Shown here: positions 3,840 to 56,704 of the stretch, in pieces | How the letters are laid out: each line of letters opens with the position of its first letter | How positions within the stretch are numbered: position 1 is the stretch's first letter | Assembly (NCBI GenBank): GCA_963402885.1 | Contig: OY727095.1 | Location: 26,417,001-26,481,000 of the forward strand | DNA from: Antedon bifida | Lineage: Eukaryota; Echinodermata; Crinoidea; Comatulida; Antedonidae | DNA: 64,000 nt | Reading direction: 5' to 3' | The notes under the pieces: model-generated | Database searches by the model: none | Seen by the model: only the letters and a program-made list of their open reading frames with translations | Told to the model about the DNA's origin: nothing | Program-made: the position numbers and the translations under genes

Positions 3840-4096
3840 CTTCTTATAATTGTAAATTTCACCATTGTACATCATGATGACATGAGGGAATTCCTTTATT
3901 CTCATTGGCTGCATTCCAAGTGCATCATCCATTATGGCAAGTTGATGAAACCCAAATAAGCAGTTGGTAAAATGATTAATATTTTGCATACAGAATGAAT
4001 CGGGTCCACGGTGCGATATCTTGCATGCCTTTTCAAAATGTGTTTGCAAATCTTCTTCACTTCCAAATATTGCCCAAATTCCACACATCTTACTGG
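3840..4096 (-). CDS. ASNS: Asparagine synthetase, first coding exon
   Basis: The ATG at 4088 opens an 83-codon exon beginning MCGIWAIFGS. Cys2 is the glutaminase nucleophile exposed by removal of Met1. SHRGPDS, FGFHQLAIMD, GMQPM and YNGEIYNYKK are further class II amidotransferase signatures and match the start of metazoan cytosolic asparagine synthetase, which makes asparagine from aspartate, glutamine and ATP. A splice acceptor (AATTGCAG) lies eight bases upstream of the ATG, so a 5' UTR exon lies further right; the donor is AAG|GTAAGA. All visible catalytic residues are intact. The TE block starting at 4.4 kb must lie in or upstream of the 5' UTR intron. Confidence 0.9.
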
Positions 4097-4413: not shown

Positions 4414-5033
4414 ATGATTCGTGATTGCCTTGACACACTGTCGGGGAATATCTGGTTTTCTAAACTGGACGCGATTTGGGGGTACTGGCAGATTAGGATG
4501 AAAGATGAAGACCGTAAGAAGACAGCGTTTATCACCAAGCATGGCCTGTTTGAATTCGTTAAAATGCCATTTGGCCTTACCAATTGTCCTGCAACTTTCT
4601 CCCGTGCCATGGGTTTGGTGCTCCGGGGATTGACGTGGGATATTGTATTGGCATTTCTCGATGACATTGTCGTGCTGGCAAAACGTTCGAAGATCATCTC
4701 AGCAACCTCTCTCAGGTTCTGCAACGATTTCGTATTAACAACTTTAAACTTAAACCTAAAAAGTGTGTTTTCTTTCAGAAACAGGTTGAATTTTTAGGGC
4801 GAATCGTTGGTGAGGATACTGTGGCGGTGTCCGATTCGGATATAAAGGTTGTTCAGGACTGGGCGACACCTACCAATCTGAGAGAAGTACAGCAGTTCTT
4901 GGGGTTGGCTAACTACCATAGAGAGTTCATTGAGAACTTTGCTGGTTTAGCTGCACCTCTATATGAAATAACTAAAAAAGAGGGGAAGTTTCACTGGGAT
5001 GATGAACAACAAGCGTTCACGTCACCGGCCTGA
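4414..5033 (+). pseudogene. Gypsy reverse transcriptase, C-terminal part (frameshifted)
   Basis: Frame 4414-4797 carries FSKLDAIWGYWQIRM, FVKMPFGLTNCPATFSRAM and the catalytic FLDDIVV. A frameshift near 4690 disrupts the thumb, and frame 4821-5033 resumes with VVQDWATPTNLREVQQFLGLANYH. The two residues of the DD pair are present but the N-terminal third of RT is absent. The corresponding minus-strand copy is at 16502-17306. Confidence 0.88.
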
Positions 5034-5065
5034 AAGCTGCTCTCGTTCAACCTCCTCTACTCGCC

Positions 5066-6268
5066 TTGCCGAACGGGACTAATGAATTTATTCTGGATGT
5101 CGATGCTTCGGATCAAGCGCTAGGAGGCGAGCTGCTCCAGGTACAGGAAGGTAAAGAGAAGGTAATTGCATATGCAAGTGCCCGTCTAACTCATGAACAA
5201 CGGAACTATTGCACTACACGCAAAGAGTTGCTAGCAATTGTGTTCATGACAAGGTATTTTAGGCACTACCTTCTAGGCAGACCTTTTAGAGTGCGGACAG
5301 ATCACAACAGCCTGACCACCTGGCTTCTCAACTTCAAGCAACCACAGGGGCAACTCGCTCGGTGGATTGAGGAGCTGAGCCAGTACCACCTACTGATTGA
5401 ACACTGCCGAGGACAACACAATGGCAACGTCGATGCTCTTTCTTGCCGACCAGAAACTCATGACAGTAGCCACGAACGGCCTGCGCTTGAGGTGCTTCCC
5501 TGTGGGGGCTGTTCGTACTGTCAACGAGCGAATGCAAGATGGTCAGCGTTCCAGGATGAAGTAGACGACGTTGTGCCCATAGCCCACGTACACCAGGTAG
5601 TCGTGGACCACCCGGAGGGTACCCTACCAGGGGACCCCGGTGGACAGGTAAGTATAGAGGTATCACGGACTGCTACTAACGGCACAATTCAGTTTTCTTT
5701 TCTACAGGACAACGACGGTGGACGAGTGGCTGCAGTACAGCTACGGCCGAAGGGAGCCGAGTGTTGGGGTTACTCACTGGACGAGCTAAGGAGACATCAA
5801 ACGAGTGATCCTGACTTGGCACCTGTTCTGGACTGGTTGCAGAATGGGGAACCCTCCGAGAATCAGCTGTTTATCTCCAGCGCTGCCACCAAACACTACT
5901 GCAGGCTGAACAGGCAATGCCTGCAGCTCACGGAAGCAGGTATACTGTTCATCAACCAAGCAGAGGGTACCGGACGACTACTTGTGTTGCCCAAGGAGCT
6001 ACACGCCGTAGCTCTCAGGCTACATCATGATTTGCCATCGGCGGATCATCAAGAGGTCGCCCGGACCAAGTTTCGACTGAAGTTTTTCTGGTATGGTATG
6101 AGCGGGGATATACAGAGGTATGTACAGACTTGCAATATTTGTAATAGAAGCAAGAAGGCCACTCGCAAAGGTCGACCGAATTCCAGGCCGGTGTTCCTAT
6201 GGAACGCGTACATATCGATTTCCTCGGCCCGTTACCAAAAACTGAACAGGGAAACATCTACATTCTGA
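5066..6268 (+). pseudogene. Gypsy RNase H and integrase N-terminal zinc region
   Basis: RNase H occupies about residues 1-130: DVDASDQALGG, RKELLAIVF, FRVRTDHNSL and HNGNVDALS supply the D-E-D-D set. After a variable spacer come the integrase HHCC zinc finger elements (RLHHDLPSADHQ, CNICNRSKK) and FRLKFFWYGMSGDIQRYV, a segment that is deleted in the minus copy. The frame ends at 6268 because of a shift just before the integrase core, which continues from 6199 in another frame. Codon use is GC-richer than the flanks, as expected for a transposon. Confidence 0.88.
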
Positions 6269-6984
6269 TGATGATCGACCAATTCACAAAATGGGTTGAA
6301 ATCAGCCCGCTCCCGTCTCAAGTTGCAGAGGTAACCGCTAGAGCCCTAGTAAGGAACTTTTTCTCTCTCGGTGTACCTTTTCAGTTACACTCAGACCAGG
6401 GGAGGAATTTTGAAAGTGAATTGTTTGCATCTTTATGTAAAGTTTTACAGATCCACAAGACCCGAACGACAAGTTACCGACCGGCGGCTAATGGTCAAGT
6501 AGAGCGATTTAATCGCACACTAATGGATGCTGTACGATGCTTCGTTGGGAAGAGACAGCGAGACTGGGATGTCTATCTGCCGCAGATTGCTGGTGCACTA
6601 CGCGCCACGGTGAACCGCTCGACTGGTTTTACTCCAAACATGCTGATGCTGGGCCGAGAGGTTAACTTACCAGCTGATCTCATGTTCGGAGAATGCTGGT
6701 CCACCAATGAGCAGGAAGCCACCACCTACGTTGCAGATTTGGTAAAACCGATCCGTGATGCCCATGGCATCGCTAGGGAAACGCTAAAGCAAACTCAGAA
6801 GAGAATGAAACGGGACTATGATCTTCGAGTACTGGAACATCCACACCAATGTGGGGACAAAGTCTACGTTCTTGACAACGCTACCCCTCGGGGAAAGTGC
6901 AAGAAATTGTGTCCCCTTGGAAGGGGCCCGGTATTATTACTAAGGTTATTAGTTCTTATTATTTCAGGTGCAGCTGAGAAATAA
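6199..6984 (+). pseudogene. Gypsy integrase catalytic core (DDE)
   Basis: The frame starts MERVHIDFLGPLP with the first catalytic Asp, followed by FQLHSDQGRNFES (second Asp) and NGQVERFNRTL (Glu). This is the retroviral-type DDE integrase, which inserts the cDNA copy into the genome. GFTPNMLMLGREVNLP belongs to the post-core region. The reading frame is lost near 6915 relative to the minus copy, so the C-terminal domain continues in a different frame toward the PHD finger. Confidence 0.9.
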
Positions 6985-6999
6985 GACGGTGGTTTTAAA

Positions 7000-7545
7000 T
7001 CATGACAAGCTGAAGCCCTGTCGGGATCGACAATTTCCTAAATGGCTGGCTGATTTTAATTTACCTTCTTTTCCTTCACCTACAGATGATGATGCAGGAC
7101 CGTTGTATTGTTTATGTCGCCAGCCCTGAGCCGGCTCATTTATGATACAATGTGACTATTGCGAGGTGTGGTACCACGGTGCATGTGTGAATATTGCACC
7201 ATCTGAGGCCTTGGACATCGATTTATATCTGTAGTGTTTACGTTATTTATGTAAATAGCCTACTTGGTCTGCGAGTTGCTTTATTTGCATATTGGTCTGC
7301 AGCTGGCCAGTCCTTTATAATAACGGGGTATACAACGACACGGGGACAATAGCGATACATGCTAGTTAGCCGCCTACTGCACACAACATTTGTTATATAT
7401 GAATGTGAGAATACACTTGACTGGAACGTTTGTGTATATGAATGTGAGGATACAAATAAAAGCACTTGACTGGATTGTTTGAATACTGTTTCTTTATTTG
7501 GTATATCACAATATCGATGTGCGGACTGCAAGCCCTCAGTTAACA
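7000..7545 (+). pseudogene. Integrase C-terminus with PHD finger, split by solo LTR
   Basis: Out-of-frame remains of the integrase tail lead to a C4HC3 PHD finger (CLCRQP, stop, SFMIQCDYCEVWYHGAC). The last Cys pair is separated from the rest by a 281-bp insertion at 7230-7510 and resumes as CADC-like sequence at 7515 onward. A TGA replaces the Trp codon seen in the minus copy. The finger is intact in the minus element. Confidence 0.8.
7230..7510 (+). mobile_element. Solo LTR of an unrelated LTR retrotransposon
   Basis: The insert begins TGTAGTG and ends ATATCACA (TG...CA). It is flanked by the perfect 5-bp duplication ATATC at 7225-7229 and 7511-7515, and contains AATAAA near 7456, which suggests plus orientation. 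The minus-strand copy of the host element lacks it, which gives an empty-site comparison. It does not resemble the host element's own LTR. Confidence 0.85.
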
Positions 7546-7583
7546 ATTAAGTAGTCACGTTTACCTTCTCTTCTCCCTCAGAT

Positions 7584-9147
7584 ATGGATCAGTTACCGTT
7601 CGCTGACGGAAGTGAGACGGAGGTTTCCGAAATGGAGGAAGATGTGCTCCTGGCTAGTCCGGGTGCACAGGAGGAATCGACCCCGAAAGAAGAAGCAGTG
7701 GCTGGGGATACGGGAGGGGCTTGCCCGGTGGCGAACACCCCAGCCAAGCGGAAACTAATCTGCCATCTGGGATGTGGTCCAGTGGGCAACATGAGAGTCC
7801 ATGTCACAAAGATGCATGCTTCGGCACTGGAACAAAGTTCTTGGCGGAGGGCACGAGTGCAGTGGCGGGTACTCACCAGCTTGGCAGCGGAGGGCCTTGG
7901 TAAAGGCAAGACACCGGAGGACTTGAGATGCTGCCTGAACGCCCAGCACCTAATGGGGGATGGTACTGACGTCCTACCTCCGGATAGAAAAACTCGTGGT
8001 GCCATCCATATGCTGATACGGGTGATTGGGGGAAAGAGGTCCATGCCTCTCACGATAGCTCCGGTTATCAGCCACCCGTTGGCTCTCATACACTGGCGTT
8101 GTGTGATTGCTCTCATCGCTTCTTTTGGTGAAGAGCTGTTGAAGGAGTGTGGTCGTCGGGCTGAGGAGGAGGAGCCGGCAGGGCACCAGACCACCAAAAA
8201 GCCGACGAAGAGGAAAGCGACAGAAAGAGAGCATGGAGAGCGACCGACCAAGCGCGATGCCCCGGCACCTAAGGATGGTAAATCAGTGGCGGCGCCACCG
8301 ATTGTGCAGGAAACATCGGCCTTGCTTGGTTCGGCGGCGAAAGTGTTTGATGCCTGTTTCCATCTGGATCGGCTGCAGAGGGACCTGCAACTTTCTCGAA
8401 GGGCGGACCTCTGGGACGTAGTGCGGGTGAAAAGTGGAACTCAGCCTGTGGAAGTGGTAGGCGGGATTGCTCTGTTTGCCGATCCAACCACTTACCCACC
8501 GAGCGGGAGATTGCCGGATTGGCGAGGAACGACTGTGCGGTGGGCTTGGGAGTGGCTCCTGGCTACCCGCCAACAACGGTCCAATTCGATAGGCTTCTGG
8601 CCTTAGCCCGATCTTGAGATGTTCGAGTAATCGGGAGAGTGGGACGCTTACGGACTGGCCAAGACAGGATCAGCTGCTAAAGAGGGTGTTGGGTCGTTGC
8701 TTGAACGGCCGCCACCACCGCATCCTGTGCCTGGAAATTACTGGAATTCAAGGCGATGTCACTGGGGAGGAGTGCTACTACCGCGTCTTGGACAGCTTAC
8801 GTCTAAGTCGCGTATCGAAGGAACAGCGGCTGCTTCTGGCAGACTACGCTTCGACGGAAGACGTAGCAACCGCCTACCTCTGGCATTTCCCCAGGACACA
8901 CTTCAGTGTGACCAGCAGAGTGACGGGTTTTACAGCCGATCAACGCAAGGGCCTGCGTTTCATCGCCACAAATGAAGATCGGCGACTGCTGATGGGGTCC
9001 AACGGACCGGACTATCCTCCTGCCGGATATCCAGTCGGAGCACCTCATCTGTTGTGGGGGACCGCCGTCGCCGTGGGACAGGTGTTCGACCGGAGCCCCA
9101 TGCAGGTCATTGATCTGACATGGAAGAACGGTCGAGATCTCCTTTGA
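7584..9147 (+). pseudogene. Third ORF (ORF3) downstream of pol, plus copy, frameshifted
   Basis: Two frames, 7584-8606 and 8614-9147, together cover about 520 codons starting MDQLPFADGSETE. An acidic N-terminus is followed by a short Cys/His cluster (CHLGCGPVGNMRVHVTKMH; C-x3-C-x8-H-x4-H spacing), a Lys/Arg/Glu-rich low-complexity segment near residues 195-235 that could act as a nuclear localisation signal, and a conserved C-terminal half (for example RSPMQVIDLTWKNGRD). No signal peptide or membrane helix is evident, so it is not an obvious envelope gene. I do not recognise the family. Both copies conserve it at protein level, which argues that it is a genuine element gene. Confidence 0.75.
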
Positions 9148-9418
9148 GCCCCTGGCTCACCCACAACCAGAAGTTTTCAGTTTTCCCAGAAATTTTCCGT
9201 TTGAATAGAAAATAGTTCCGTATTACATTTATTTTCATTTATATCTTTCAGGTATCCAGGGAAGCGGAGGACAGTGCTACTGGTATGTCCCACGGCCATT
9301 GACTACCTGAAGAGATCGTTGGGAGCGGTCTACATAGCTACGGGTATTTTTCAAGTACGAAAATCACCCGGTTCACCTCCGAGGTGGATCCAGGACGGGG
9401 TGCCCGCTTTTCAAACAT

Positions 9419-9426
9419 GGGAGGAG
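9419..9426 (+). other. Polypurine tract of plus element
   Basis: GGGAGGAG directly abuts the 3' LTR start, the expected position for the plus-strand primer. Confidence 0.75.
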
Positions 9427-9729
9427 TGTTGTGAACGGTGCCCGCTGGGTAAACAGACCACCTCTCCGACCGAAAGAGGGCGTCGCCCCGATAGCTTGAT
9501 TTGCATACAGGGCGTATGCAAATGTTAACGTGGGACCTCGACGCCACCCGAACCGGTCTATTCGAAGCAAGGAACCAAGCAAAGAAGACGGAAGATACCG
9601 ATTATATATATAATTGACTTGGACTTGCTTTTCTACACTGTGTGTGATTTACAGTAAAGCGGGACTAATAAGGTAAGCCTAGTTGCTGTACTTATTAGGC
9701 CATCACAGTGCTGACTGAAAATCACAACA
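9427..9729 (+). repeat. 3' LTR of plus Gypsy element
   Basis: The LTR begins TGTTGTGAAC and ends AAAATCACAACA, so its termini are inverted TGTTGTG/CACAACA. It matches the reverse complement of both LTRs of the minus element (11792-12090 and 20146-20439). Confidence 0.9.
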
Positions 9730-10072
9730 ATATGATGATGTATCATGGAGGTACAGTATGGGGAACATGTATACTAGTACGGATTACGGTCGAAGCGGCC
9801 TAGTTCAATAACGGTAATCTGTATGGAACGCCGTGTCGTTGTTTTGTAATCTTTGATTGTCATTGTTTCGACAGGTTTTCTTTACCTCGGACGTATTAAT
9901 AACAATCTACATTATTATGTAATTTATTCTCTTTTTTTACAGATTGAATGTGATAGGCCTACGTTCTTTTAAACGAAATGGCGAATCGATGATTACTTAC
10001 TTTAACCGTTCTAACTGATATATATGTTTAATAAAGTCAATAAAATACATTGTGTACAGTACTGAAGTAGGC
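9730..10072. other. Spacer between Gypsy LTR and TIR element
   Basis: AT-rich DNA with aggcctag words. Nothing further is recognised. Confidence 0.5.
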
Positions 10073-11791: not shown

Positions 11792-12090
11792 TGTTGTGAT
11801 TTTAGGTTGGTGCTGGAATGGCCTGATAATTAAAGCTACTAGGCTTACCTTAGTCAGTCCTGCTTGTCCTAAATCACACAAGATCCGAAAGCAGCAAATC
11901 CAAATATATTGGTCAATTCCGTTTATGTCCGTTTCTCCTTGGTTCCTGCTTCGAATAGACCGGTTCGGGCGGCGTTGAGGTTCCACGTTAACATTTGCAT
12001 ACCCCCCGGTATGCAAATCAAGCTATCGGGGCGACGCCCTCGTTCGGTCGGAGGGGTGGTCTGTTTACCCAGCGGGCGCCGTTCACAACA
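11792..12090 (-). repeat. 3' LTR of minus Gypsy element
   Basis: Read on the plus strand it runs TGTTGTGATTTTAGG to GTTCACAACA. It contains the near-palindrome ATTTGCAT...ATGCAAAT around the centre, two inverted octamer-like ATTTGCAT sites that could bind POU factors. Confidence 0.9.
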
Positions 12091-12099
12091 CTCCTCCCG
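12091..12099 (-). other. Polypurine tract of minus element
   Basis: On the minus strand CGGGAGGAG immediately precedes the 3' LTR, the same tract as in the plus copy. Confidence 0.75.
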
Positions 12100-12375
12100 T
12101 GTTTGAAAAGCGGGCACCCCGTCCTGGATCCACCTCGGAGGTGAACCGGGTGATTTTCGTACGTGAAAAATACCCGATACCCGTAGCTATGTAGACCGCT
12201 TCCAACGATCCCTTCAGGTAGTCACTGGCCGTGGGACATGCCTATAGCACCGTCCTCCGCTTCCCTGGATACCTGAAAGATATAAATGAAAATAAATGTA
12301 AAACGGAACCATGTTCTTTTGAAACGGAAATTTCTGGAAAAACTGAAAACTTCTGGTTGTGGGTGAGCCAGGGGC

Positions 12376-14038
12376 TCAAAGGAGATCTCGACCGTTCTTC
12401 CATGTCAGATCAATGACCTGCATGGGGCTCCGGTCGAGCACCTGTCCCACGGCGACGGTGGTCGCCCACAACAGATGAGGTGCTCCAACTGGGTATCCGG
12501 CAGGAGGATAGTCCGGTCCGTTGGACCCCATCAGCAATCGCCGATCTTCATTTGTAGCGATGAAACGCAGGCCCTTGCGTTGATCGGCCGTAAAGCCCGT
12601 CACTCGGCTGGTCACGCTAAAGTATGTCCTGGGGAAATGTCGGAGGTAGGCGGTGGCTACGGCTTCCGTGGAAGCGTAGTCTGCCAGAAGCAGCCGCTGT
12701 TCCTTCAACACACGACTTAGACGTAGGATGTCCAAGACGCGATAGAGAGACTTCAAGACACAGCATGCGGTGGTGGCGGCCGTCCAAGCAACGACCCAAC
12801 ACCCTCTTTAGCAGCTGATCTTGTCTCGGCCAATCTGTAGGCGGGGCCGAATGGTCCAACCCCACTCTCCCGATTACTCGAACATCTCGAGTTCGGGCTA
12901 AGGCCAGAAGCCTATCGAATTGGACCGTTGTCGGCGAGTAGCCAGGAGCCACTCCCAAGCCCACCGCACAGCCGTTCCTCGCCAGTCCGCCAATCTCCCG
13001 CTCGGTGGGGTAAGTGGTTGGATCGCCAAACAGGGCAATCCCGCCTACCACTTCCACAGGCTGTGTTCCACTTCTCACCCGCACCGCTCGCTCCACGTCC
13101 CAGAGGTCCGCTCGTCGGGAAAGTTGCAGGTCCCTCTGCAACCGGTCCAGATGAAAACAGGCGTCGAACACTTTGGGCGCCGAACCAAGCGAAGCCGATG
13201 TACCCTGCACAATCGGTGGCGCCGCCACTGATCTACCATCCTTCGGTGCCGGGGCATCGCGCTTGGTCGGTCGCTCTCCCTGTTCTCCACCTGCCGCTTT
13301 CCTCTTCGTCGGCTTTTTGGCGGTCTGGTCCACTGCCGGCTCCTCCTCCTCCTCAGCCCGACGACCACACTCCTTCACCAGCTCTTCACCAAAAGAAGCG
13401 ATGAGAGCAATCACACAGCGCCAGTGTATGAGAGCCGACGGGTGACTGATAACCGGAGCTATCGTGAGAGGCGGGGGCCTCTTTCCCCCAATCACCCGTG
13501 TCAGCATAAGGATGGCACTACGAGTTTTCCTATCCGGAGGTAGGACGTCAGTGCCATCCCCCATTAGGTGCTGGACGTTCAGGAGACATCTCAAGTCCTC
13601 TGGTGTTCTGCCTTTACCAAGGCCCTCCGCTGCCAAGCTGGTGAGTGCCCGCCATTGCACTCGTGCCCTCCGCCAAGAACTTCGTTCCAGTGGTCGAAAA
13701 CATGCCAGGGCATGCATCTTCGTGACGTGGACCCGCATGTTGCTCACTGGACCACATCCCAGATGGCATTTTGGTTTCTGCTTGGCTGGGGTGCTCGCCA
13801 CCGGGCAAGCCCCTCTCGTATCCCCAGCCACTGCTTCTTCTTTCGGAGTCATCAGATGGCAGATTGGTTTCCCCTTGGCTGGGGTGCTCGCCGCCGGGCA
13901 AGCCCCTCTCGTATCCCCAGCCACCGCTTCCCCTTTCGGGGTCGGTTCCTCCTGTACTCCTGGACTAGCCAGGAGCACATCTTCCTCCATCTCGGAAATC
14001 TCCGTTTCACTTCCGTCAGCGAACGGTAACTGATCCAT
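12376..14038 (-). pseudogene. Third ORF (ORF3) of minus Gypsy element
   Basis: Frame 14038-12617 (473 codons) starts MDQLPFADGSETE; the conserved C-terminus lies in frame 12756-12376 (ending WKNGRDLL) after a shift near 12750. Relative to the plus copy, the N-terminal region carries an in-frame 93-bp tandem duplication (13781-13966) that repeats the segment containing GACPVASTPAK. The Cys/His cluster (KCHLGCGPVSNMRVHVTKMH), the Lys/Arg-rich segment and the C-terminal block are shared. Shifts fall at different points in the two copies, so the ancestral ORF was probably continuous at about 520 codons. Function is unknown; its place after pol is where errantiviruses carry env, but no membrane features are seen. 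Confidence 0.75.
13781..13966 (-). repeat. 93-bp in-frame tandem duplication in ORF3
   Basis: Two units, 13781-13873 and 13874-13966, begin CTTGGCTGGGGTGCTCGCC on the plus strand and differ at a handful of bases. The period of 93 bp (31 codons) preserves the frame. The plus copy has one unit. Confidence 0.85.
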
Positions 14039-14073
14039 ATATCTGAGGAAGAAGAGAAGGTAAACGTGAGTAC

Positions 14074-15756
14074 TTAATTGTTAACTGAGGACTTGCAGTC
14101 CGCACATCGATATAAGTCGATGTCCAAGGCCTCAGACGGTGCAATATTCACACATGCACCGTGGTACCACACCTCGCAATAGTCACATTGTATCATAAAT
14201 GAGCCGGCCCAGGGCTGGTGACATAGACAATACAACGGTCCTGCATCCGGATCTGTAGGTGAAGAAAGAGAAGGTAAATTAAAATCAGCCAGCCATTTAG
14301 GAAGTTGTCGATCCCGACAGGGCTTCAGCTTGTCATGATTTAAAACCACCGTCTTATTTCTCAGCTGCACCTGAAATAAACAAGAACTAATAACCTTAGT
14401 AATAATACCGGGCCCCTTCCAGGGGGGACACAATTTCTTGCACTTTCCCCGAGGGGTAGCGTTGTCAAAAACGTAGACTTTGTCCCCACATTGGTATGGT
14501 CGTTCCAGTACTCGAAGATCATAGTCCCGTTTCATTCTCTTCTGAGTCTGCTTTAGCGTTTCCCTAGCGATGCCATGGGCATCACGGATCGCTTTTACCA
14601 AATCTGCAACGTAGGTGGCGGCTTCCTGCTCATCGGTGGACCGGCATTCTCCGAACATGAGATCAGCTGGTAAATTAACCTCTCGGCCCAGCATCAGCAT
14701 GTTTGGAGTGAAACCAGTCGAGCGGTTCACCGTGGCGCGTAGTGCACCAGCAATCTGCGGTAGATAGACATCCCAGTCTCGCTGTCTCTTCCCCACGAAG
14801 CATCGTACAGCATCCATTAGTGTGCGATTAAATCGCTCTACTTGACCGTTAGCCGCCGGTCGGTAGCTTGTCGTTCGGGTCTTGTGGATCTGTAAAACTT
14901 TACATAAAGATGCAAACAATTCACTTTCAAAATTCCTCCCCTGGTCTGAGTGTAACTGAAAAGGTACACCGAACCTAGAGAAAAAGTCCCTTACTAGGGC
15001 TCTAGCGGTTACCTCTGCAACCTGAGACGGGAGCGGGCTGATTTCAACCCATTTGGTGAATTGGTCGACCATCATCAGAATGTAGATGTTTCCCTGTTCA
15101 GTTTTTGGTAACGGGCCAAGGAAATCGATGTGTATGCGTTCCATAGGAACACCGGCCTGGAATTCTGTCAACTGGTGTCGATCTTGGCTTGCCTTCTTGC
15201 TTCTATTACAAATATTGCAAGTCTGTACATACCTCTGTATATCCCCGGCCATCCCGTACCGTACTTGATGACCCGCCGATGGCAAATCATGATGTAACCT
15301 GAGAGCTACGGTGTGTAGCTCCTTAGACAACACAAGTAGTCGTCCGGTACCCTCTGCTTGGTTGATGAACAGTATACCTGCTTCCGTGAGATGCAGGCGT
15401 TGTCTGTTCAGCCAGTAGTGTTTGGTGGCAGCGCTGGAGATAAACAGCTGATTCTCGGAGGGTTCCCCATTCTGCAACCAGTCCAGAACAGGTGCCAAGT
15501 CAGGATCACTCGTTTGATGTTGCCGTAGCTCGTCCAGTGAGTAACCCCAACACTCGGCTCCCTTCGGGCGTAGCTGTACTGCAGACACTCGTCCACCGTC
15601 GTCGTCCTGTAGGAAAGAAAACTGAATCGTACCGTTAGTAGCAGTCCGTGATACCTCTATACTTACCTGTCCACCGGGGTCCCAAGGAACATCGTCCCCT
15701 GGCAGAGTACCCTCCGGGTGGTCCACGGCTACCTGGTGTACGTGGGCGATGGGCAC
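14074..15756 (-). CDS. Gypsy integrase with C-terminal PHD finger
   Basis: This is an open frame of 560 codons. In order: a linker; a zinc-binding region (LRLHHDLPSAGHQ, CNICNRSKK) in which about 13 residues present in the plus copy are missing; the DDE core with HIDFLGPLP, HSDQGRNFES and NGQVERFNR at about residues 205-330; a GPGIITKVISSCLFQVQLRNK C-terminal integrase domain near 450; and a PHD finger at about 507-555. The finger has C-x-C, C-x2-C, H-x2-C and C-x2-C pairs, with FMIQCDYCEVWYHGAC and DIDLYRCADC. The latter strongly resembles PHD fingers of the KDM7/PHF8 group, which bind histone H3 trimethylated on Lys4. The finger would tether the integration complex to chromatin; that role is inference. 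Confidence 0.9.
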   Translation of the reverse strand: MPIAHVHQVAVDHPEGTLPGDDVPWDPGGQVSIEVSRTATNGTIQFSFLQDDDGGRVSAVQLRPKGAECWGYSLDELRQHQTSDPDLAPVLDWLQNGEPSENQLFISSAATKHYWLNRQRLHLTEAGILFINQAEGTGRLLVLSKELHTVALRLHHDLPSAGHQVRYGMAGDIQRYVQTCNICNRSKKASQDRHQLTEFQAGVPMERIHIDFLGPLPKTEQGNIYILMMVDQFTKWVEISPLPSQVAEVTARALVRDFFSRFGVPFQLHSDQGRNFESELFASLCKVLQIHKTRTTSYRPAANGQVERFNRTLMDAVRCFVGKRQRDWDVYLPQIAGALRATVNRSTGFTPNMLMLGREVNLPADLMFGECRSTDEQEAATYVADLVKAIRDAHGIARETLKQTQKRMKRDYDLRVLERPYQCGDKVYVFDNATPRGKCKKLCPPWKGPGIITKVISSCLFQVQLRNKTVVLNHDKLKPCRDRQLPKWLADFNLPSLSSPTDPDAGPLYCLCHQPWAGSFMIQCDYCEVWYHGACVNIAPSEALDIDLYRCADCKSSVNN

Positions 15757-15764
15757 AACGTCGT

Positions 15765-16502
15765 CTACTTCATCCTGGAACGCTGACCATCTTGCATCTG
15801 CTCGTTGACAGTACGAACAGCCCCCACAGGGAAGCCCTTCAAGCGCAGGCCGTCGTGGCTACTGTCATGAGTTTCTGGTCGGCGAGAAAGAGCATCGGCG
15901 TTGCCATGGTGTTGTCCTTGGCGGTGTTCAATCAGCAGGTGGTACTGGCTCAGCTCCTCGATCCACCAAGCGAGTTGCCCCTGTGGTTGCTTGAAGTTGA
16001 GGAGCCAGGTCAGGCTGTTGTGATCCGTCCGCACTCTAAAAGGTCTGCCTAGAAGGTAGTGCCTAAAATGCCTGGTCATGAACACAATTGCTAGCAACTC
16101 CTTGCGTGTAGTGCAATAGTTCCATTGTTCATGAGTTAGACGGGCACTTGCGTATGCAATTACCTTCTCTTTACCTTTCTGTACCTGGAGCAGCTCGCCT
16201 CCTAGCGCTTGATCCGAAGCGTCGACATCCATAATAAATTCATCAGTCCCGTTCGGCAAGGCGAGTATAGGAGGTTGAACGAGAGCAGCTTTCAGGCCGG
16301 TGAACGCTTGTTGTTGTTCCTCATCCCAGTGAAACTTCACCTCTTTTTTAGTGAGTTCATATAGAGGTGCAGCTAAACCAGCAAAGTTCTCAATGAACTC
16401 TCTATGGTAGTTAGCCCACCCCAAGAACTGCTGTACTTCTCTCAGATTGGTAGGTGTCGGCCAGTCCTGAACAGCCTTTATATCCGAATCGGACACCGCC
16501 AC
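15765..16502 (-). pseudogene. Gypsy RT connection and RNase H
   Basis: The frame begins in the RT thumb (VQDWPTPTNLREVQQFLGWANYH) and continues with KAALVQPPILALPNG and RNase H motifs VDASDQALGG, RKELLAIVF, FRVRTDHNSL and HGNADALS, which supply the acidic active-site set. It is separated from the polymerase frame by a shift around 16510-16600 and ends shortly before the integrase frame. Confidence 0.9.
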
Positions 16503-16574
16503 AGTATCCTCACCAACGATTCGCCCTAAAAATTCAACCTGTTTCTGAAAGAAAACACACTTTTTAGGTTTAAG

Positions 16575-17306
16575 TTAAAAGTTGTTAATACGAAATCGTT
16601 GCAGCACCTGAGAGAGGTTGCTGAGATGATCTTCGAACGTTTTGCCTAGCACGACAATGTCATCGAGAAACGCCAACACAATATCCCACGTCAATCCCCG
16701 AAGCACCAAACCCATGGCACGGGAGAAAGTTGGACAATTGGTTAGACCAAATGGCATTTTAACGAATTCATACAAGCCATGCTTGGTGATAAACGCTGTC
16801 TTCTTACGGTCTTCATCTTTCATCCTAATCTGCCAGTACCCCCAAATCGCGTCCAGTTTAGAAAACCAGATATTCCCTGACAGTGTGTCAAGGCAATCAC
16901 GAATTAGAGGTAATAGATACGCATCTTTAGTAGTAATGTTGTTGAGAGCTCGATAGTCAATGCAAAAGCGCACAGAACCATCGCGCAATGTAAACTGTAG
17001 AGGCCCCACCTTCGAACCTGGCATGGATGTTCCCCTCCCTGCCAAAGTAAAGGACAGGGTGGACACCACAGGTGGTGCCGGATCTAGACTTTTATAAACC
17101 TTATCGGATAGTATGGTAAAATCCGCTGCAGTGTCCACGACTGCGTCAATTTTTGTACCATTTACAAAAGCAGTTGCATGCAACGCATTCAACGATTTTA
17201 CCCTGTTGATAACAATCCGAGTTTGAGTCTCTTCAGTTTTGGTTGTCGTCGGTGTAGATGATTCAATCAGCCCTGAGCTAATTGTAGATGGCTCGATGAT
17301 CGTCAC
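16575..17306 (-). pseudogene. Gypsy protease fused by deletion to RT
   Basis: An N-terminal Ser/Thr-rich stretch leads to an aspartic protease start (KIDAVVDTAADFTILSD; D-T-A replaces the usual D-T/S-G). The protease then runs directly from GSKVGPLQFT into LRDGSVRFCIDYRALN of RT. In intact Gypsy pols a few hundred residues lie between these points, so an internal deletion near 16990 removed the protease C-terminus and RT N-terminus. RT motifs PFGLTNCP and FLDDIVV follow. The polyprotein could not be processed or reverse-transcribed by this copy itself. Confidence 0.85.
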
Positions 17307-17437
17307 AGGATCCGGTGCTACCTCCTCCGTATTTACAGGCTTGGCAATCGGGCCCAGCTTGGAGATAGTTGACGAGCCATCATCTTCCTGGCCAGCTTCC
17401 GGAACCGGGTTAGGTCGTCGGCCCTCTGACCCAACCC

Positions 17438-19337
17438 TTACTCGTTTAACGGATCCTGCTCATTGCCACTAACCTGACGCAAACGGCTCGCTAACCTCGG
17501 ACACTCCCTGCGGAAATGTCCCACCTCCTTACATTCAAAGCAAGCTAGTTCGCCTGGTCTCATGAAACGCATGAGCTGATCCAATTGATTCCGCATGGCG
17601 GCAATCTCCGTGTTCACGGTGTTCTCCACCCGTCCCAGATTGGTGTTCAACGTCTGGAAATTACTCTCCACAGCGGCCAAACGGGCCTCCGTAGTAGGAG
17701 TATTGTTGGTGGGTGGCACCGACGTCACAGTTCGAGGCTGGTTCTGGCCGTCAGTAGGTGCGGGTTCCGGAGGAACCCAAGCTGGTGCTGGCCTCTGAAA
17801 CGTTACACGGTTTCCCCTCATAGGCCTCCCTCGCACCTGCTTAATGGATACCTCATCGCCAGTTTCACCCTCGGTATCGTCCTGGTCTTCTGAAGGTAGC
17901 TGAAAAGATAGTGGGGGTGCAAAAGAAGTACGGACCGTGGACCTAACATGAGGTTTCACGGTATCCTTAACCTTACTCTTACGTTTACTATATAGTCCCC
18001 TATAACTATCATATTTTTCAAACTCCCTAATAGCTCTGGGAATAGTTGAACAGCTTGTGCATGACGTGCCTACCTACTTCTGCGTCCCTGCACCCAATAC
18101 AAAACCTAACTACGGCCTGCTCCTGGATCCACTCCTTGGGCAAATCCTTAAACGCCTTTCTAGTCAGGGTTAGCACTCTATCTCCCCATTCCTCTATAGT
18201 CTCCCCCTCATTTTGCGTAGCAGTCTCTAATTTAGCTTGGAGGACTGCGGGGAGCTCGTCCTCATTAAAGCGTCGGTTGAAAGCTTTAATGATCTGCCTA
18301 AAGCCCATATCAGCGTCCATTTCTATTAGATTCACATAGAACTCAGCCGCCGCTCCGTCTAAACACCAAGTAAGGACGTCCTTACTTTCACGGTTTGTGA
18401 GTTCCTGCTCATCTATAAATGAAGCCAATCGTCGCTTAAAAAAGAACCAGTTGTCTCCCCTCCCCCTAAACGTTAGAGACCTAGGTATATCTTTTTTACG
18501 CATCCTCCTATGTTCTAAAAGACACTGCCGGCCTTCATAGTGCCTGATTCTCGGGGTAGTCTTAAGACACTCCACTGCTGTCCTAGCCCCTGCACTATGT
18601 CTATCAGACTCTATACTCCTGCTACTATCAGTATCAGTACCCTCTCTACTAAGGTCACTATCGCTGGTCGATGGAGATCGACGGCGAGCCCTAGTTTTAG
18701 ACCTAGCGTTTTTAGATAGTCTCCTGGGGAGTCTTTCCTCCTCGTCCTCCCTAGAGCTAAAACACGAGTCTAAGGTTATTGGAGATGGCTTTTTGATGTA
18801 GCTCCTACGTTGTGTTGACCTACTCTTACTTCTATCCTGGTCAGAACGCCCAACGGAGGTGGACGGCATATAAGCCCTAAGCCCACCTTCGAGATGACGA
18901 GGATCACTAGCAGGTCCTGCAGTATAATACGTACCTGGTACGTCTAATAAAAGAGTAGCCTGGGGCGATAAGAGGACGTGGTATCGACCACTATGGCCCC
19001 CGTCATTTTGCACCCTGTATGCCCCTTCTATATATACAGGTTGTGCGACCTGCGACCCCCTTCTGGCCGCTCTATTTTGTTTTTCCACTAGAGGTGACAC
19101 ATTATCAATCATCTGGCCTACGCCTCCACCTAAACTCGGATTCGGTTGAAAATCCAGGTAGTCAACTAACCTGGCAGTACCGGCTATTCCGTGTATCTGG
19201 TGAATATTAGAGGACGTAATGTTGCCATGGGTAGCCCGCCATTTAATTATTCTAGTTGCTCGTTTCTTCCCTACATTAGGGACTCCATGAAGGTCTTGCA
19301 CTGGGCAAAAGTTAACTAGAACCTTATTAGACGACAT
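17438..19337 (-). pseudogene. Gypsy Gag with helix-hairpin-helix N-terminus and CCHC knuckle
   Basis: Frame 19337-18027 (436 codons) starts MSSNKVLVNF; residues 14-50 read DLHGVPNVGKKRATRIIKWR...IHGIAGTA, a tandem helix-hairpin-helix pattern like the ComEA DNA-binding fold. A long Ser/Arg-rich region follows, then a retrotransposon Gag domain (RGRGDNWFFFKRRLASF, FNRRFNEDELPAVLQAKLE). The frame closes at 18027 through a one-base shift near 18040 and resumes at 17959-17438 with a basic linker and one zinc knuckle, CFECKEVGHFRREC. The HhH is not a usual Gag component. Confidence 0.82.
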
Positions 19338-20126
19338 GATCTAAACATTGTCTCTCTTCTATTGGGTTGTTATGCTCCTAAATCTAGTTACAGTGTATGA
19401 CAGATGTTATTAAGCAAAGAGTACGATACAAATTAAAATACCGCCAGACGTAATAAAGATTACAGGCCCAACAGTAGAATCAAATATCGTCAATGCAGTA
19501 ACACACACACACAATATTGCAAAATGGCTGTTGGAGATGCAAATAATTATAATAAAATATTATACCAGCAAACCTGCAATGAAAAGCAACTAGATTATTC
19601 AAAAAGACGTCAATACATTTAACAACACTTACCACTAAACCTTCCCCCGATGCAATGAAAGGAGAGCGATAATGCCACTGTGAGGTTAACACAATATAAT
19701 ACGCACAGCCAGTATAATTTCTCAAGATGAAAAACCTGACTGACGGACGAAAAAGATGTTATCCAAAAAAAAAACAATCAAGGTTAAAAATTAGTGGTGC
19801 CACTCAGTTCAACGGCCACGCCTAGTACCCCACCAGGTGATACGGCCTAATAAACTGCCCACTAATACTTCAACTATAGCAACAAAACTACCCCGTCGAT
19901 ACGCTAATCAGCAAGTATCCAAATGCCACAATACTGCGTGATTAACTTTACCGGTATGTTATACCTTTAATAAATATACCAACTTCAATAAACTAACAAA
20001 TGCACCGTAAGCACAATAAGTTAATAGGTTTCGGAGGACGAAATACCTCGCGATCAACCCGATCACGTTAAGAATGCAAAGCAATCAAGGTTCCCGCCTC
20101 TCAAAAAAAAAAAAATATATTCCGAG
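19338..20126 (-). other. 5' leader of minus Gypsy element
   Basis: The untranslated leader between PBS and gag, about 790 bp, has no sizeable ORF. It contains short homopolymer runs and an AC repeat near 19500. Confidence 0.6.
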
Positions 20127-20144
20127 CTTTTGCTCGCAGCACCA
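20127..20144 (-). other. Primer binding site of minus Gypsy element
   Basis: One base inside the 5' LTR, the minus strand reads TGGTGCTGCGAGCAAAAG, complementary to a tRNA 3' end finishing AGCACCA. The tRNA species was not determined. Confidence 0.75.
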
Positions 20145-20145
20145 A

Positions 20146-20439
20146 TGTTGTGATTTTAGGTTGGTGCTGGAATGGCCTGATAAAGCTACTAGGCTTACCT
20201 TAGTCAGTCCCGCTTGTCCTAAATCACACAAGATCCGAAAGCAGCGAATCCAAATATATTGGTCAATTCCGTTTATGTCCGTTTCTCCTTGGTTCCTGCT
20301 TCGAATAGACCGGTTCGGGCGGCGTCGAGGTCCCACGTTAACATTTGCATACCCCCGGTATGCAAATCAAGCTATCGGGGCGACGCCCTCGTTCGGTCGG
20401 AGGGGTGGTCTGTTTATCCAGCGGGCGCCGTTCACAACA
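20146..20439 (-). repeat. 5' LTR of minus Gypsy element
   Basis: It spans TGTTGTGATTTTAGG to CACAACA on the plus strand and is followed by TTTT, matching the TTTT before the 3' LTR. Confidence 0.92.
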
Positions 20440-24550: not shown

Positions 24551-24585
24551 TATCACCTCACAAACACTTTTCCCAGTATACTTAC

Positions 24586-27405
24586 CATTGATTTAAATGA
24601 AATCGTGTGGTAATCATCTGCTCTATATTCGTCAATTGCAGAGACGTCCTTAATAATAGTAACGATGTTCACCAAACACAATGTGCCATCTAAAGAACTA
24701 CATCTTTCACACACTGGACCACAAACAAACTGCTCATGAACGTAATCAGGACTGAACGTCTGTTGAACAATTTCTTCTATGAAAGTAGTAATTTTGTGTA
24801 GAATATTTACAGATTGATTCGGGTTTACCTTAGTAACTGAAAGTTTGATGAGATTTTTATCATAAAAGAAAATGCTGCCAGCAGAAATTGTTTCCGTGTT
24901 TATTTGAAAGAGACATGATTCACTTGCTCTAAATTTTGCAGCATTATAGTAGATATTAATCCAATTAAACATCTTGCAACATTTGGCAATAAGACGAAGA
25001 AAGATAAATTCAAGTATTATTTCTCCAAAATCAAAATAAAATATTTCATTGATGTCAACAGCTGATTTACTAGTTTGTAAATCAGTTCTCGGCAATCGGC
25101 TGCAAAGGTAAAATCTTCCAACTTGATCAATTTCATTAGTAATTGTAAGTGGAAAAAGTAGATGTGTTTCAACCAAAAAACGAATCACATAAGGATAAAC
25201 TCTCCAAATTCCTTTCATTCGACAAATATGTTCCACTAATCTACTGTCAATAATTCCGGTTTCCAGCAATCTCTGCCAAAGATCAGATACAGTTCGCGTT
25301 CTTTTATGTGGTTCTGGCACATTTACTAGTAATTTCAGAATGTCTATTAGTACTGGATCACAAACAATATAGTTTTGAAGCCATTCATCGTGTTCGTTGT
25401 ATATAATATCTCCAGATTTTTCAAAAAAATTCAGAAGTGTACGCAGCTCATATTTTAGAAATGTTTTGCTTTTTGAAATTATTTCCTTTTCAATATCGTT
25501 TATACTTGTAATAACACAATTTTTAGAGCGAAATCCATTTAGTATTTCCTTAAATAAAAGATATTTAACAAACAATAATTCCTTGAAGTATTTCAGAAGT
25601 TGCACCTCTTTGTGTATAGTTTTTCGTAATAGGTTACAATCTTTATCATCACTGAGAGCGTATTCAATAAAAAAATAAAGTCCACCATTTGGATGAAAGG
25701 CAAGCAATCTTGAAAACCTTTTGTAAATATGTGCATTTAACAATTTTTCAAAAGCTGGAAACAAGTTTGTATCACATATACTTTCTCGCCTTGTACCCAC
25801 AAGAAATACTACGACATTTTCAATATCGGCATGCATAGCAATAGATTGTAACCATAACTGTAGCCGCTTAATATGTCTATAAGGATTAGAAATTGCTTTG
25901 GCAGCGTTGAAAACAACCAAGTATACACCTTGCTTTGGCATAAATAGATGATGTGTATTATAATACATTTCTTGGCCTGCAAAATCCCATAAACTAAGTC
26001 TAGCATCGATGTAGCATTCATTTCGAATATCTGCTTTCATTGACTTTCTGATATGAATTATTGGCATCGATGACGTAGTTTTTAATAATTTTATGTATGT
26101 ACGCCATTCGTAGATAACAAACCCAATAATTGGTGCCAAAAAGAAAAACAATTCAAGCAAATATCTTGTAATAGAAAGTTTTTTGTCAAGTAAAATAAGA
26201 TTGTTGACATTTACAAATTCCCAACCACACATTTTTGTTAAACATATCCCAGTTATAAATCCAACAAATTTCTTTACGAATTAATAACCTTCAGGAACAC
26301 ATCCAAAAGCCGCTAGTTGCCTTCCTAATATAGACCCAAGCAATGCGGAAAAGATAATTGTAGAAAGGCAAAATAATGTAAATATGTCAACAAAAGTATT
26401 TCTTTCAAAATATTTAGCTGCGGTTATAAACAACATAATAAGTATTGACACAATAATGAACCTGCGCCTTATTGGATATATTTTAGTGTAAATAATCCTA
26501 AAAATAACCATAATAATAACTGCATAAATTAAAAACTCCAAATATTTTAGATTACAAATAAATATGTATAACTTTTCTAAGACATCTTCGAGTGAAGTAG
26601 GGGTATGGATTGGATGTACCATGCAGCACAAAGCTAAACAGATATCAGTCCTACCACCTCCGGCAATAAGTACACCAATAAAGAACGAACCTAGCCCATA
26701 CATAAAAGCAGTTACAAAAATCCATAAGTTGAACTCCATTTTCTGTAAGTTTGCAGTTTGTTTATGTAGTTGTGTAGCACTATCTACGAGTACCATGATA
26801 ATAGCATACCCACAACCAAAGCGATAAGCACTGTGAACATCACATATTGTCATAAGACAAAGGATGTATAACCATACGATTGGTCCGAATATAAACCCAC
26901 CAAAACAGAGCATAACTGTCATAGGAAAAATATGCAACATTAGGTAAAATGTATCCTCAAATAATTTTCGAATTGACAATTCTGTATTACTTTCAGACGT
27001 AATACTTTTCTTGAGACCTTTATTTTGATTATGTCTGAGCACATGGGATACTGTACACCACGCTGCTGAACTTTCATAATCTTCTACTGGTGTGTTGGTA
27101 ACTTCAGACCATTTACTATTAACATCACTAACGTTCGCCTTAACAGTATTTGTTTCTATTCCTATTGTACTAGGCTCCTCTGGTCGAAAATCTTTACCCT
27201 GTAAACGCCTGCATGTCGAAGTTTTCCCGGCACCATGATCACCCAGGATGAGAATCTTGGTTCTGTTAAACGGTATTTTCCCTTTTTCTTGTGCTGTTTT
27301 GTAGGCTTCTTTAACTTCAGTATCATCTGCTAATACGCGCATGTTTAAACTTCTCTTAAACGACACAATATATCCTTTAAGGAAATTTGATATGTTTTTA
27401 TTCAT
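24586..27405 (-). pseudogene. Roco-family GTPase with transmembrane insertion, one in-frame stop
   Basis: One continuous frame from ATG 27405 to a strong donor (ATG|GTAAGTAT) at 24586, interrupted only by TAA at 26281-26283; without that stop about 940 codons. Residues ~48-62 hold the P-loop (ILGDHGAGKTSTCRRL) of a Roc GTPase domain. Residues ~150-430 contain seven or eight hydrophobic segments (for example VMLCFGGFIFGPIVWLYIL). The domain resumes with the switch II motif LWDFAGQEMYYNTHH and a G4-like VFLVGTRRES, then a COR-like region and a C-terminal Cys pair cluster (CGPVCERC). No LRR or kinase is seen. The stop lies between membrane segments and may be a nonsense allele (CAA to TAA is one step) or a sequencing error. 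Upstream of the ATG is an in-frame stop and an acceptor (TTTGTTACAG) near 27463, so a 5' UTR exon is likely. Confidence 0.8.
26281..26283 (-). other. In-frame TAA splitting the Roco ORF
   Basis: The frames before (27405-26284) and after (to 24553) are the same; 16 sense codons separate the TAA from the next Met at 26232. No GT-AG intron long enough to remove it is visible. Confidence 0.85.
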
Positions 27406-28477
27406 ATTAATGTCTGGCCTTTTTACAATTTCTGCTTGTTATTTCAATTTGCTTTCATCTTCTGTAACAAAAAAGAATATATTAGTTAGACTTTCGATTG
27501 CCGATGAAACACAGTAATTATTCATTTTGAAGTAATATTATACAAACAAGGAATCTTGAATGTCATTTCTGTAATGTTATTGTTTGTTGCAAAATCAAGG
27601 CAGCAGTCGGCGCTATTGGATTTCAATTAACTATCAAATTTCAATCGCTATTTTGGCCTGGGGATTTTTTCCCTACGTTAGAAGATTTTTTTTAATACAA
27701 AATAGCTGAAAAAGGTACTTCACACGATCGTTTAATAGATAAAATGTGACCCATAATTGTTCAATCAAATGAGAATATATTTAGGTGTATTATAATACGA
27801 GGTAGAGAATTTAGTATGAAATAGCAGTATTACCTACTGAATTAGAAACGTTTGTCAATATACCAAAAGACCCACCACATATTACAATAGTAATGAAAAT
27901 AAGTGTAATCTACTCAGAATTTTATGAGGAATAACAAATCAAAAATGTAGAAAAAAAAATTAGTGGAAGTGGGGGTCACATTTTGCAAATAAAGGTTATT
28001 TGAGGTCAAATAATGTATGAAATAGTAATTTTTGCTGTATAGGACAATTTAAATAAATGGTATACAAGTGTGTTGCATATCATTTAAATGCATATTCAAT
28101 TTCCGTTTGAAGGATATCAACATTTTTAAAAATATTTGAATTTTTTAAAAATATTTTTTGTTCACTTTATAAAAATATACTTAGGCTAATTTTCAGATAT
28201 TCAATCAATAATTTCTCAGAAATATACTTATTGCCTGAAAATGTCATAACGCCCCTCCCACACATCCCCCTCCCAAACCAACCGTTTTCTCTATAGTAAT
28301 GGAATAGTAATGGTAGCTGTGATACCTGTTATAATAGTGATATTCATGATTTATCTACTGATAATAATTAGTTTTAAAATAAAACAATCAAAAATAATTT
28401 TAAAACGTCATCCATAACAAAAATTGGCAATCTGTGTGAACGTTTTACATGGCTAATCACCATACTGTAGTCGGCAA
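27406..28477. other. Upstream region of the Roco gene
   Basis: AT-rich noncoding DNA with the 5' UTR acceptor near 27463. No promoter element or other gene could be identified. Confidence 0.45.
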
Positions 28478-52804: not shown

Positions 52805-52892
52805 GTAAATGGATTTATATAATCAAAATGTCCTACAATAAAAACTGGTAAATAAGAATGTTTAGTTTTATTTATATGATATTAGGAGAAAC

Positions 52893-53830
52893 TATTGCTG
52901 GAAAAGCAGTTGTGGTTGCTACTGATACGCTATTATGCTATTGAAGTGTAAGGGTTAAGTGTTTCACCGCTATAGCAGCTATTTCTGCTATAGCAGGAAA
53001 AGCAGTTGTGGTTGCTACTGATATGCTATTGTGCTATTGAAGTCTGGGAGTTAAGTGTTACTGCTATAGCAGCTATTTTTGCTATAGCTGGAAAAGCAGT
53101 TATGGTTGCTATTGATTTGCTATTATGCTATTGAAGTCTAAGGGTTAAGTGTTACTGCTATAGCAGCTATTTTTGCTATAGCTGAAAAAGCAGTTGTGGT
53201 TGCTACTGATATGCTATTATGCTATTGAAGTGTAAGGGTTAAATGTTTCACTGCTATAGCAGCTATTTTTGCTATAGCTGAAAAAGCAGTTGTGGTTGCT
53301 ACTGATGTGCTATTATGCTATTGAAGTGTAAGGGTTAAATGTTTCACTGCTATAGCACAAAAAGCAGATGTGGTTGTTACTGATATGCTATTATGCTATT
53401 GAAGTCTAAGGGTTAAGTGTTACTGCTATAGCAGCTATTTCTGCTATAGCTCGAATAGCAGATGTGGTTGCTACTGATATGCTATTATGCTATTGAAGTC
53501 TAAGGGTTAAGTGTTACTGCTATAGCAGCTATTTTTGCTATAGCTGGAAAAGCAGTTGTAGTTACTACTGATACGCTATTATGCTATTGAAGTGTAAGGG
53601 TTAAGTGTTTCACCGCTATAGCAGCTATTTCTGCTATAGCAGGAAAAGCAGTTGTGGTTGCTACTGATGTGCTATTGTGCTATTGAAGTCTAAGGGTTAA
53701 GTGTAACTGCTATAGCAGCTATTTTTGCTGAAGCTGGAAAAGCAGTTATGGTTGCTATTGATTTGCTATTATGCCATTGAAGTCCAAGGGTTAAGTGTTA
53801 CTGCTATAGCAGCTATTTCTGCTATAGCTC
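52893..53830. repeat. 94-bp satellite, main array
   Basis: About ten units of the same family as 47770-48620, with one shortened unit near 53350. Confidence 0.92.
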
Positions 53831-56227: not shown

Positions 56228-56704
56228 ACTGGTTATTTTCAACAAGCTTGTGTAATACAAAGAAAATCCCAAAAATTATGAAACATAGGGGAAACTATAG
56301 ATCGATGATTATTGGAATGTATGATCAATAGAAATTTCTTGCCCGCACCTGGCCTTTAAGTATACACAGTTTAAGTGTAGCATTGTGTAATTTTTATATT
56401 ATTTGGCTTTAACTATGACTACATTCTGACATGGTATGGTGTAGTTAAAATATAGCAACTATAGCAGAGGTTTCAGGCAAGTGATCAATGTGTCACAGTA
56501 GGATAGTGATATAACAGCTATCCCAAGGCTATTTGCAGCCTGTTTTGTAGAGTGGTTTTGTATAGGTGGTGTGAAGCAATTGCACAGGTATTTGTTTGCT
56601 GTTTATATTACAAAAGCTATCCCAAGGCTATTTTCAGCCTGGCTATATCAATTATAGCAACTGCAAGCTATTTCCATGCTATTTATGCTGTATAAAGTAT
56701 AGCA
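56228..56704. other. Transition between 76-bp and 56-bp satellites
   Basis: Mostly unique DNA; 56470-56600 (AGTGATCAATGTGTCACAGTAGG) recurs in altered form inside the next array at 57141-57230. Confidence 0.6.

Follow-up and report, generated by a model that had tools for sequence, protein, structure and literature searches.

What does a PHD finger do at the end of a retrotransposon integrase? The question is raised by a 64,000-nucleotide stretch of the genome of the crinoid Antedon bifida (contig OY727095.1 of assembly GCA_963402885.1, positions 26,417,001 to 26,481,000; hereafter the window), which holds two damaged copies of one Ty3/Gypsy-type element with long terminal repeats (LTRs), here called the minus element and the plus-strand copy. 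In the minus element the integrase ends in a PHD finger of the class that reads histone H3 trimethylated at lysine 4 (H3K4me3). The overall best explanation, which we favour while keeping reservations, is that the finger reads H3K4me3 and tethers insertion to active chromatin.

The integrase frame of the minus element (15858..14074) stays open for 594 codons, and its stop lies six residues past the finger. It holds an integrase core at residues 238-334 and a PHD finger that Pfam places at residues 544-588:

14077..15858, minus strand: open integrase frame of 594 codons, PHD finger at its C-terminal end (PF00665 E 3.1e-15; PF00628 E 7.1e-8)
14095..14232, minus strand: PHD finger, residues 543-588 (Pfam, match to the PDB, profile and fold comparison)

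The PF00628 match scores 32.8 bits against a cut-off of 24, the eight ligands C544, C546, C558, C561, H566, C569, C585 and C588 follow the C4HC3 order, and the modelled fold is that of a PHD finger, resembling in particular PHD fingers bound to H3K4me3. The closest sequence match in the PDB is PHF8 (E 1.4e-14), the two fingers ending alike (DIDLY-x-C versus DIDIY-x-C), and several of the nearest solved fingers, by sequence and by fold, are H3K4me3 complexes. The original prediction, made from the letters alone, had described an integrase frame continuing without a stop into a complete finger at 14085-14245 and proposed a profile search as a check; the open frame and the profile score both bear it out, and the finger falls within the noted interval.

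The same arrangement recurs in relatives of the integrase. A query of the C-terminal 155 residues found 31 homologues, all of which carry PF00628; this query includes the finger, and counts obtained with the integrase core (residues 230-440) are less biased. Among the best 120 of 1083 matches to the core, to which the counts of finger presence below refer, PF00628 was present in 82 by the Pfam column of the database, counted by eye, and a profile of 28 element fingers found the finger in 87. Many of the finger-less relatives end early. Where the protein extended 60 or more residues beyond the C-terminal block of the integrase, the finger was present in 80 of 82 cases, and in 86 of 91 where the tail measured at least 30 residues; the two long-tail exceptions are P0060 and P0071, and P0071 keeps a partial finger start (YCVCRGPDIG). 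The finger sits at a median of 21 residues behind the C-terminal block and ends at most 12 residues from the C-terminus in 84 of 93 finger proteins. Its named sources include the crinoid Anneissia, the sea urchin Lytechinus, the starfish Acanthaster, the clam Mercenaria, the mussel Mytilus and the pearl oyster Pinctada, besides metagenome-assembled genomes of clam symbionts; the closest integrase-PHD relative among the listed matches is P0001 of Anneissia japonica (68% across the last 155 residues and 79% across the core). By these counts the finger is near-fixed among close relatives and a clade-wide feature, as the claim that it belongs to the family had anticipated. That the integrase-PHD fusion is genuine is, in our view, virtually certain.

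Several of these relatives are filed under other headings. Public records call the Mytilus proteins P0031 and P0094 'COMPASS component SPP1', probably owing to the finger, and P0035, P0043, P0047, P0082, P0087 and P0089 are filed in metagenome-assembled genomes of Candidatus Thiodiazotropha, where they are probably host clam DNA. We also built two alignments, A1 (the window with 25 of 126 integrase proteins) and A2 (the window with 27 fragments chosen by eye for diversity). Scans of viral contigs with the integrase and with A1, and one scan of genome contigs, returned 11, 9 and 50 short-pattern stretches, among which no relative was confirmed.

Does the finger have the residues needed to hold a methylated lysine? 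In PHF8 the K4me3 cage is formed by Y7, Y14, M20 and W29 (PMC10321576). Y543, M555 and W564 of the element finger pair with PHF8 Y7, M20 and W29 in every alignment. The pairwise alignment sets W550 opposite Y14, but the PHF8 loop is one residue longer and the profile alignment leaves Y14 in a gap; W550 is thus uncertain as the fourth cage position. Residues were counted in 85 full-length element fingers, that is, the window and 84 proteins, six of which came solely from the finger-containing query; the nine finger proteins dropped as partial were P0033, P0039, P0044, P0047, P0050, P0084, P0105, P0106 and P0126. All eight zinc ligands are present in 83 of the 85 fingers (C544, C558, C561, H566, C569 and C588 in 85, C546 and C585 in 84 each), and the cage residues M555 and W564 are invariant. 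Position 543 is Y in 72, F in 10 and H in 3, and position 550 is W in 33, D in 31, Y in 11 and another residue in 10. In PHF23, either of the cage substitutions M353V and W362A abolishes H3K4me3 binding (PMC7335091), and these two residues stand nine apart, the spacing of the cage Met and Trp in the element finger. Moreover, fingers with just two aromatic cage residues bind with a dissociation constant in the micromolar range or better (PMC7335091), and variation at position 550 is therefore compatible with binding. The window finger has most of the cage residues of an H3K4me3 reader (YYMW in PHF8), and binding to H3K4me3, or to the dimethylated form, appears quite probable.

Between the two copies in the window, replacement changes per site are fewer than silent ones. 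The ratio of the two rates (dN/dS) was 0.31 for the integrase-PHD frame (565 codons), while its shifted frames gave 0.70 and 1.95; reverse transcriptase and RNase H gave 0.62. The low value likely reflects constraint on the frame before the copies decayed. The comparable finger codons differ by three silent changes, one replacement and one stop, too few to test alone.

If the finger is a reader, it would sit at the free C-terminus of each integrase in the intasome, bind the H3 tail carrying K4me3 and dock the intasome on nucleosomes at active promoters; new copies would thereby land in transcribed chromatin. This tethering has a precedent in the ING2-PHD/LEDGF-IBD fusion, in which an H3K4me3-reading finger tethers HIV-1 integrase and integration moves towards transcription start sites (PMC8149907). 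That fusion is an engineered host factor, whereas the finger of the element is natural and lies within the integrase chain. We lean towards an effect of the finger on insertion-site choice. An integrase fused to a finger of this kind, present in many relatives from marine animals as well, suggests that the element directs insertion towards active genes.

Among retrotransposons, the reading of histone marks is best known from chromodomain integrases. Chromoviruses likewise end their Gypsy integrase with a chromatin reader (PMC3605345, PMC10799480, PMC7385966); theirs is a chromodomain, which may target heterochromatin via H3K9 methylation (PMC7385966), whereas the H3K4me3-class finger has active promoters as its predicted target. 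If this is true, an H3K4me3-guided integrase would be the mirror image of the chromodomain integrases, and its clade their euchromatic counterpart. A Pfam scan at E 1 listed PHD families and no chromodomain for the integrase frame, and a chromodomain at the integrase C-terminus being the mark of a chromovirus, the element does not appear to be one. PHD fingers have been described in other mobile elements. In CR1/L2 long interspersed nuclear elements (LINEs), where a targeting role has also been proposed, the finger belongs to a non-LTR retrotransposon and is found in ORF1 in most subgroups, not in an integrase (PMC4120745; the PHD of CR1 is also referred to in PMC4255032). Ginger1-9_HM likewise has a Gypsy-integrase-like transposase, with Ulp1 and PHD listed as C-terminal domains, but it is a DNA transposon with terminal inverted repeats and the only such case among the 16 Ginger1 families tabulated, so that the finger is not clade-wide there (PMC2836005). 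We found no description of a PHD finger on a Gypsy integrase in the open-licence literature, Repbase and subscription journals lying outside the search.

A genuine reader could act at a step other than target choice, such as transcription of the element, recruitment of host complexes, nuclear retention or multimerisation of the integrase, with no large effect on insertion sites. The finger is indeed part of pol, which does several jobs beyond strand transfer, and authors writing on the LINE ORF1 fingers knew of no functional studies (PMC4120745). However, the extreme C-terminus of the integrase is the very place that the chromodomain occupies in chromoviruses (PMC3605345, PMC10799480), and we regard this alternative as unlikely, though it deserves to be taken seriously.

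The finger might also bind a ligand other than H3K4me3, be it H3 in its unmodified form, some other protein tail with a lysine, or a nucleic acid. Some PHD fingers do bind unmodified H3, the PHF2 finger has been solved with the N-terminal peptide of VRK1 (title of entry 7m10), and position 550 of the cage is acidic in at least 31 of the 85 element fingers. The invariance of the cage Met and Trp and the H3K4me3 complexes among the closest solved fingers argue against such a ligand, and we hold it to be rather unlikely.

The likeness to PHF8 raises the separate question of where the finger came from, and the original prediction, judging by eye, had inferred capture from a host gene of the KDM7/PHF8 type. 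Indeed, PHF8 is the top PDB match and shares the similar end of the finger. Yet a profile of the 28 element fingers gave CXXC1, PHF2, DIDO1 and BPTF scores less than about 4 bits apart, with CXXC1 on top. In a tree of 91 tips and 47 columns, including six cellular fingers of which none is echinoderm, the cellular fingers stood together on one side of a split (support 85), joined by the element finger P0102 alone; PHF8 and PHF2 paired (support 100), and the window finger paired with P0001 (no support value) within a group of five elements (support 89). The phylogeny that had been proposed as a check thus does not place the window finger with KDM7, a weak result given 47 columns and six cellular fingers. 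By raw distance none of the 85 element fingers was nearer to any of the six cellular fingers than to that of another element, and the fusion is common to elements of clam, mussel, sea urchin and starfish. The fingers of PHF8, PHF2, KDM7A, CXXC1, BPTF and DIDO1 share with the element finger the fold, the ligands and most cage residues, but they belong to cellular chromatin proteins and lie across the split from every element finger except P0102. The closeness of these profile scores and the tree split together indicate that the likeness to PHF8 reflects the reader class and does not demonstrate capture from that gene. In sum, sequence comparison supports the H3K4me3-reader class well, as had been proposed from the start, and it does not support descent from KDM7/PHF8 in particular; capture from the host's own gene is improbable.

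Pairwise distances between fingers correlated with those between integrase cores (r 0.54; none of 2000 permutations as high) in the 80 of the 85 fingers whose proteins had enough integrase core, as would be expected had the two mostly descended together. A cellular PHD finger acquired once, long ago, and then passed down mostly with the integrase would account for this pattern. P0102 stands somewhat apart: its finger matches PHF2 (E 2.9e-19), while by raw distance it is nearer to the element finger P0055 (0.32) than to PHF2 (0.39), and it may represent a second capture. Finally, the damage in both copies could have suggested a chance fusion or artefact in which a host PHD exon came to lie beside a dead integrase, which the same fusion in 80 of 82 long-tail relatives and the position of the finger between integrase and third open reading frame (ORF3), within the LTRs, leave with practically no probability; a host exon adjoining a dead element was accordingly rejected as a candidate.

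The element that carries the integrase was delimited by self-comparison:

11792..20439, minus strand: LTR retrotransposon copy (minus element), LTR end to LTR end
20146..20439, minus strand: 5' LTR, 294 bp, same as the 3' LTR at 289 of 299 aligned positions
11792..12090, minus strand: 3' LTR, 299 bp
18027..19340, minus strand: gag, part 1, retrotransposon gag domain (PF03732 E 1.5e-5, over cut-off) preceded by a weak helix-hairpin-helix
17438..18073, minus strand: gag, part 2, CCHC zinc knuckle (PF00098 E 1.6e-5)
16575..17459, minus strand: protease and first part of reverse transcriptase (RVT_1 E 8e-19; aspartyl protease E 9e-4, under cut-off)
15765..16574, minus strand: end of reverse transcriptase and RNase H (PF17917 E 3.4e-32)

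Its termini are TGTTGTGA..TCACAACA (TG..CA), with AAAA at both outer flanks, which as a target-site duplication is of low complexity and thus weak. TTGGTGCTGCGAGC behind the 5' LTR is a candidate primer-binding site and the purine-rich GGGAGGAG just ahead of the 3' LTR a candidate polypurine tract. By Pfam the domains follow each other on the minus strand, in several frames, as gag, zinc knuckle, protease (under the cut-off), reverse transcriptase, RNase H, integrase-PHD and ORF3. The paired LTRs, their ends and this order make it a Ty3/Gypsy-type LTR retrotransposon. Frame breaks interrupt pol. Gag begins with this helix-hairpin-helix (PF12836 HHH_3 E 3.9e-5, under cut-off), apparently an uncommon feature at that end of the protein; the same region gave a ComEA-like NCBIfam match under the cut-off and a weak match to KIF22 (E 0.0032).

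The plus-strand copy lacks gag:

4417..9730, plus strand: second copy, 5'-truncated, 3' LTR near 9427-9729 (blastn 88-93% to inner parts of the minus element, 82% for the LTR)
7106..7535, plus strand: PHD finger of this copy, with one in-frame stop and an insertion at 7231-7522

The claim that both genomic copies carry the finger thus holds as to its presence; as to an intact finger it does not, the stop and the insertion breaking that of the plus-strand copy. The insertion, of 292 bp, precedes the last two cysteines, has TG..CA ends and ATATC on both sides, and is probably a solo LTR of another element. Homology of this copy starts 329 bp upstream of the ATG of a first coding exon on the minus strand (3840-4088) that is asparagine-synthetase-like (MCGIW.., glutamine amidotransferase domain) and ends at a GTAAG donor. 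We considered this proximity as a sign of promoter insertion and rejected it, since the near end of the copy is a truncation and no insertion edge.

Behind the finger, in another frame, both copies hold an ORF3 that begins with MDQLPFADG:

12617..14038, minus strand: N-terminal part of ORF3, MDQLPFADG start, C2H2-like motif and beginning of a TatD-like domain (PF01026 E 3.4e-4, under cut-off)
12376..12807, minus strand: C-terminal part of the TatD-like domain, in a different frame (PF01026 E 0.013, under cut-off)
7584-9147, plus strand: ORF3 of the plus-strand copy, same C2H2-like motif and TatD-like domain
14043..14044, minus strand: possible 3' splice site, AG behind a pyrimidine tract; the ORF3 ATG follows after four bases (two in the plus-strand copy)

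Ranked by a simple pyrimidine score, the candidate acceptor is one of the top two AGs in either copy, out of 601 in the minus element and 346 in the plus-strand copy. The donor-like AAGGTAAG occurs in all three LTRs, reading AAG/GTAAGC in the 5' LTR with its GT starting at 20198; it scores 8 of 9, compared with 9 for a site in the integrase region and 8 for four non-LTR sites. By analogy with env, ORF3 is perhaps spliced from the LTR.

A protein search with ORF3, which scored the 8000 candidates with most shared words, returned two proteins, among them P0127, a 273-residue protein of Antedon mediterranea. P0127 matches 27% of the ORF3 frame at 97% identity, and a longer alignment gives 80%. 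P0128, a metagenomic protein, combines a TatD domain with a zinc motif like that of ORF3. An 861-residue gene model of Acanthaster, P0084, unites an integrase, a PHD finger, a C2H2-like motif and a TatD domain in a single chain. Three cysteines, the first and the last two, are missing from its finger, and the join between integrase and ORF3 may therefore be a predicted intron. Against the TatD_DNase cut-off of 27, P0127 scored 29.3 bits, P0128 125.1 and P0084 120.7, and the window pieces fell below it. The metal ligands of TatD are HxH, E, H, H and D. P0084 and P0128 keep them; in the window copies they are lost: CFH replaces HFH, R replaces Glu, and the later ligands have gone too. P0127, which begins behind the first motif, keeps none of the others. 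Judged by these ligands, the window ORF3 would not be a TatD nuclease. Its dN/dS between the copies was 0.50 for the first part (1.00 and 0.93 in shifted frames) and 0.22 for the second, and constraint despite the lost ligands suggests a non-catalytic role in the window's element. The structure model of ORF3 had a mean predicted local distance difference test score of 40.5 and was not used for fold searches. We found no description of a TatD domain in retrotransposons in the open-licence literature; a retrocopy of TATDN2 has been described (PMC5408686).

A broader picture, in which our confidence is evenly poised, would be that of an old Gypsy clade of marine animals natively encoding an H3K4me3-guided integrase, the natural counterpart of the engineered PHD-LEDGF fusion. 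Where env would otherwise stand, some members would carry a spliced third gene with zinc finger and TatD domain, active as a nuclease in certain lineages and retained in Antedon as a scaffold without catalysis. The clade makes it testable whether the reader domain of an integrase sets the insertion landscape. Should the TatD-like gene prove real throughout the clade, it would provide an accessory function of which we found no description in the open-licence literature.

Elsewhere, the window holds a reverse transcriptase at 111-1448 on the plus strand (RVT_1 E 8e-29), LINE-like by eye. Two adjoining long frames on the minus strand (24553-27438) contain GDHGAGKTS and DFAGQE, which we take to be GTPase-like motifs; with their membrane-like stretches the frames may encode a Roco-like protein. 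Tandem arrays at 52892-53829, 53840-56226 and 56677-58362, with periods of about 94/190, 76/152 and 56, probably cause the strong base skew at 54-56 kb.
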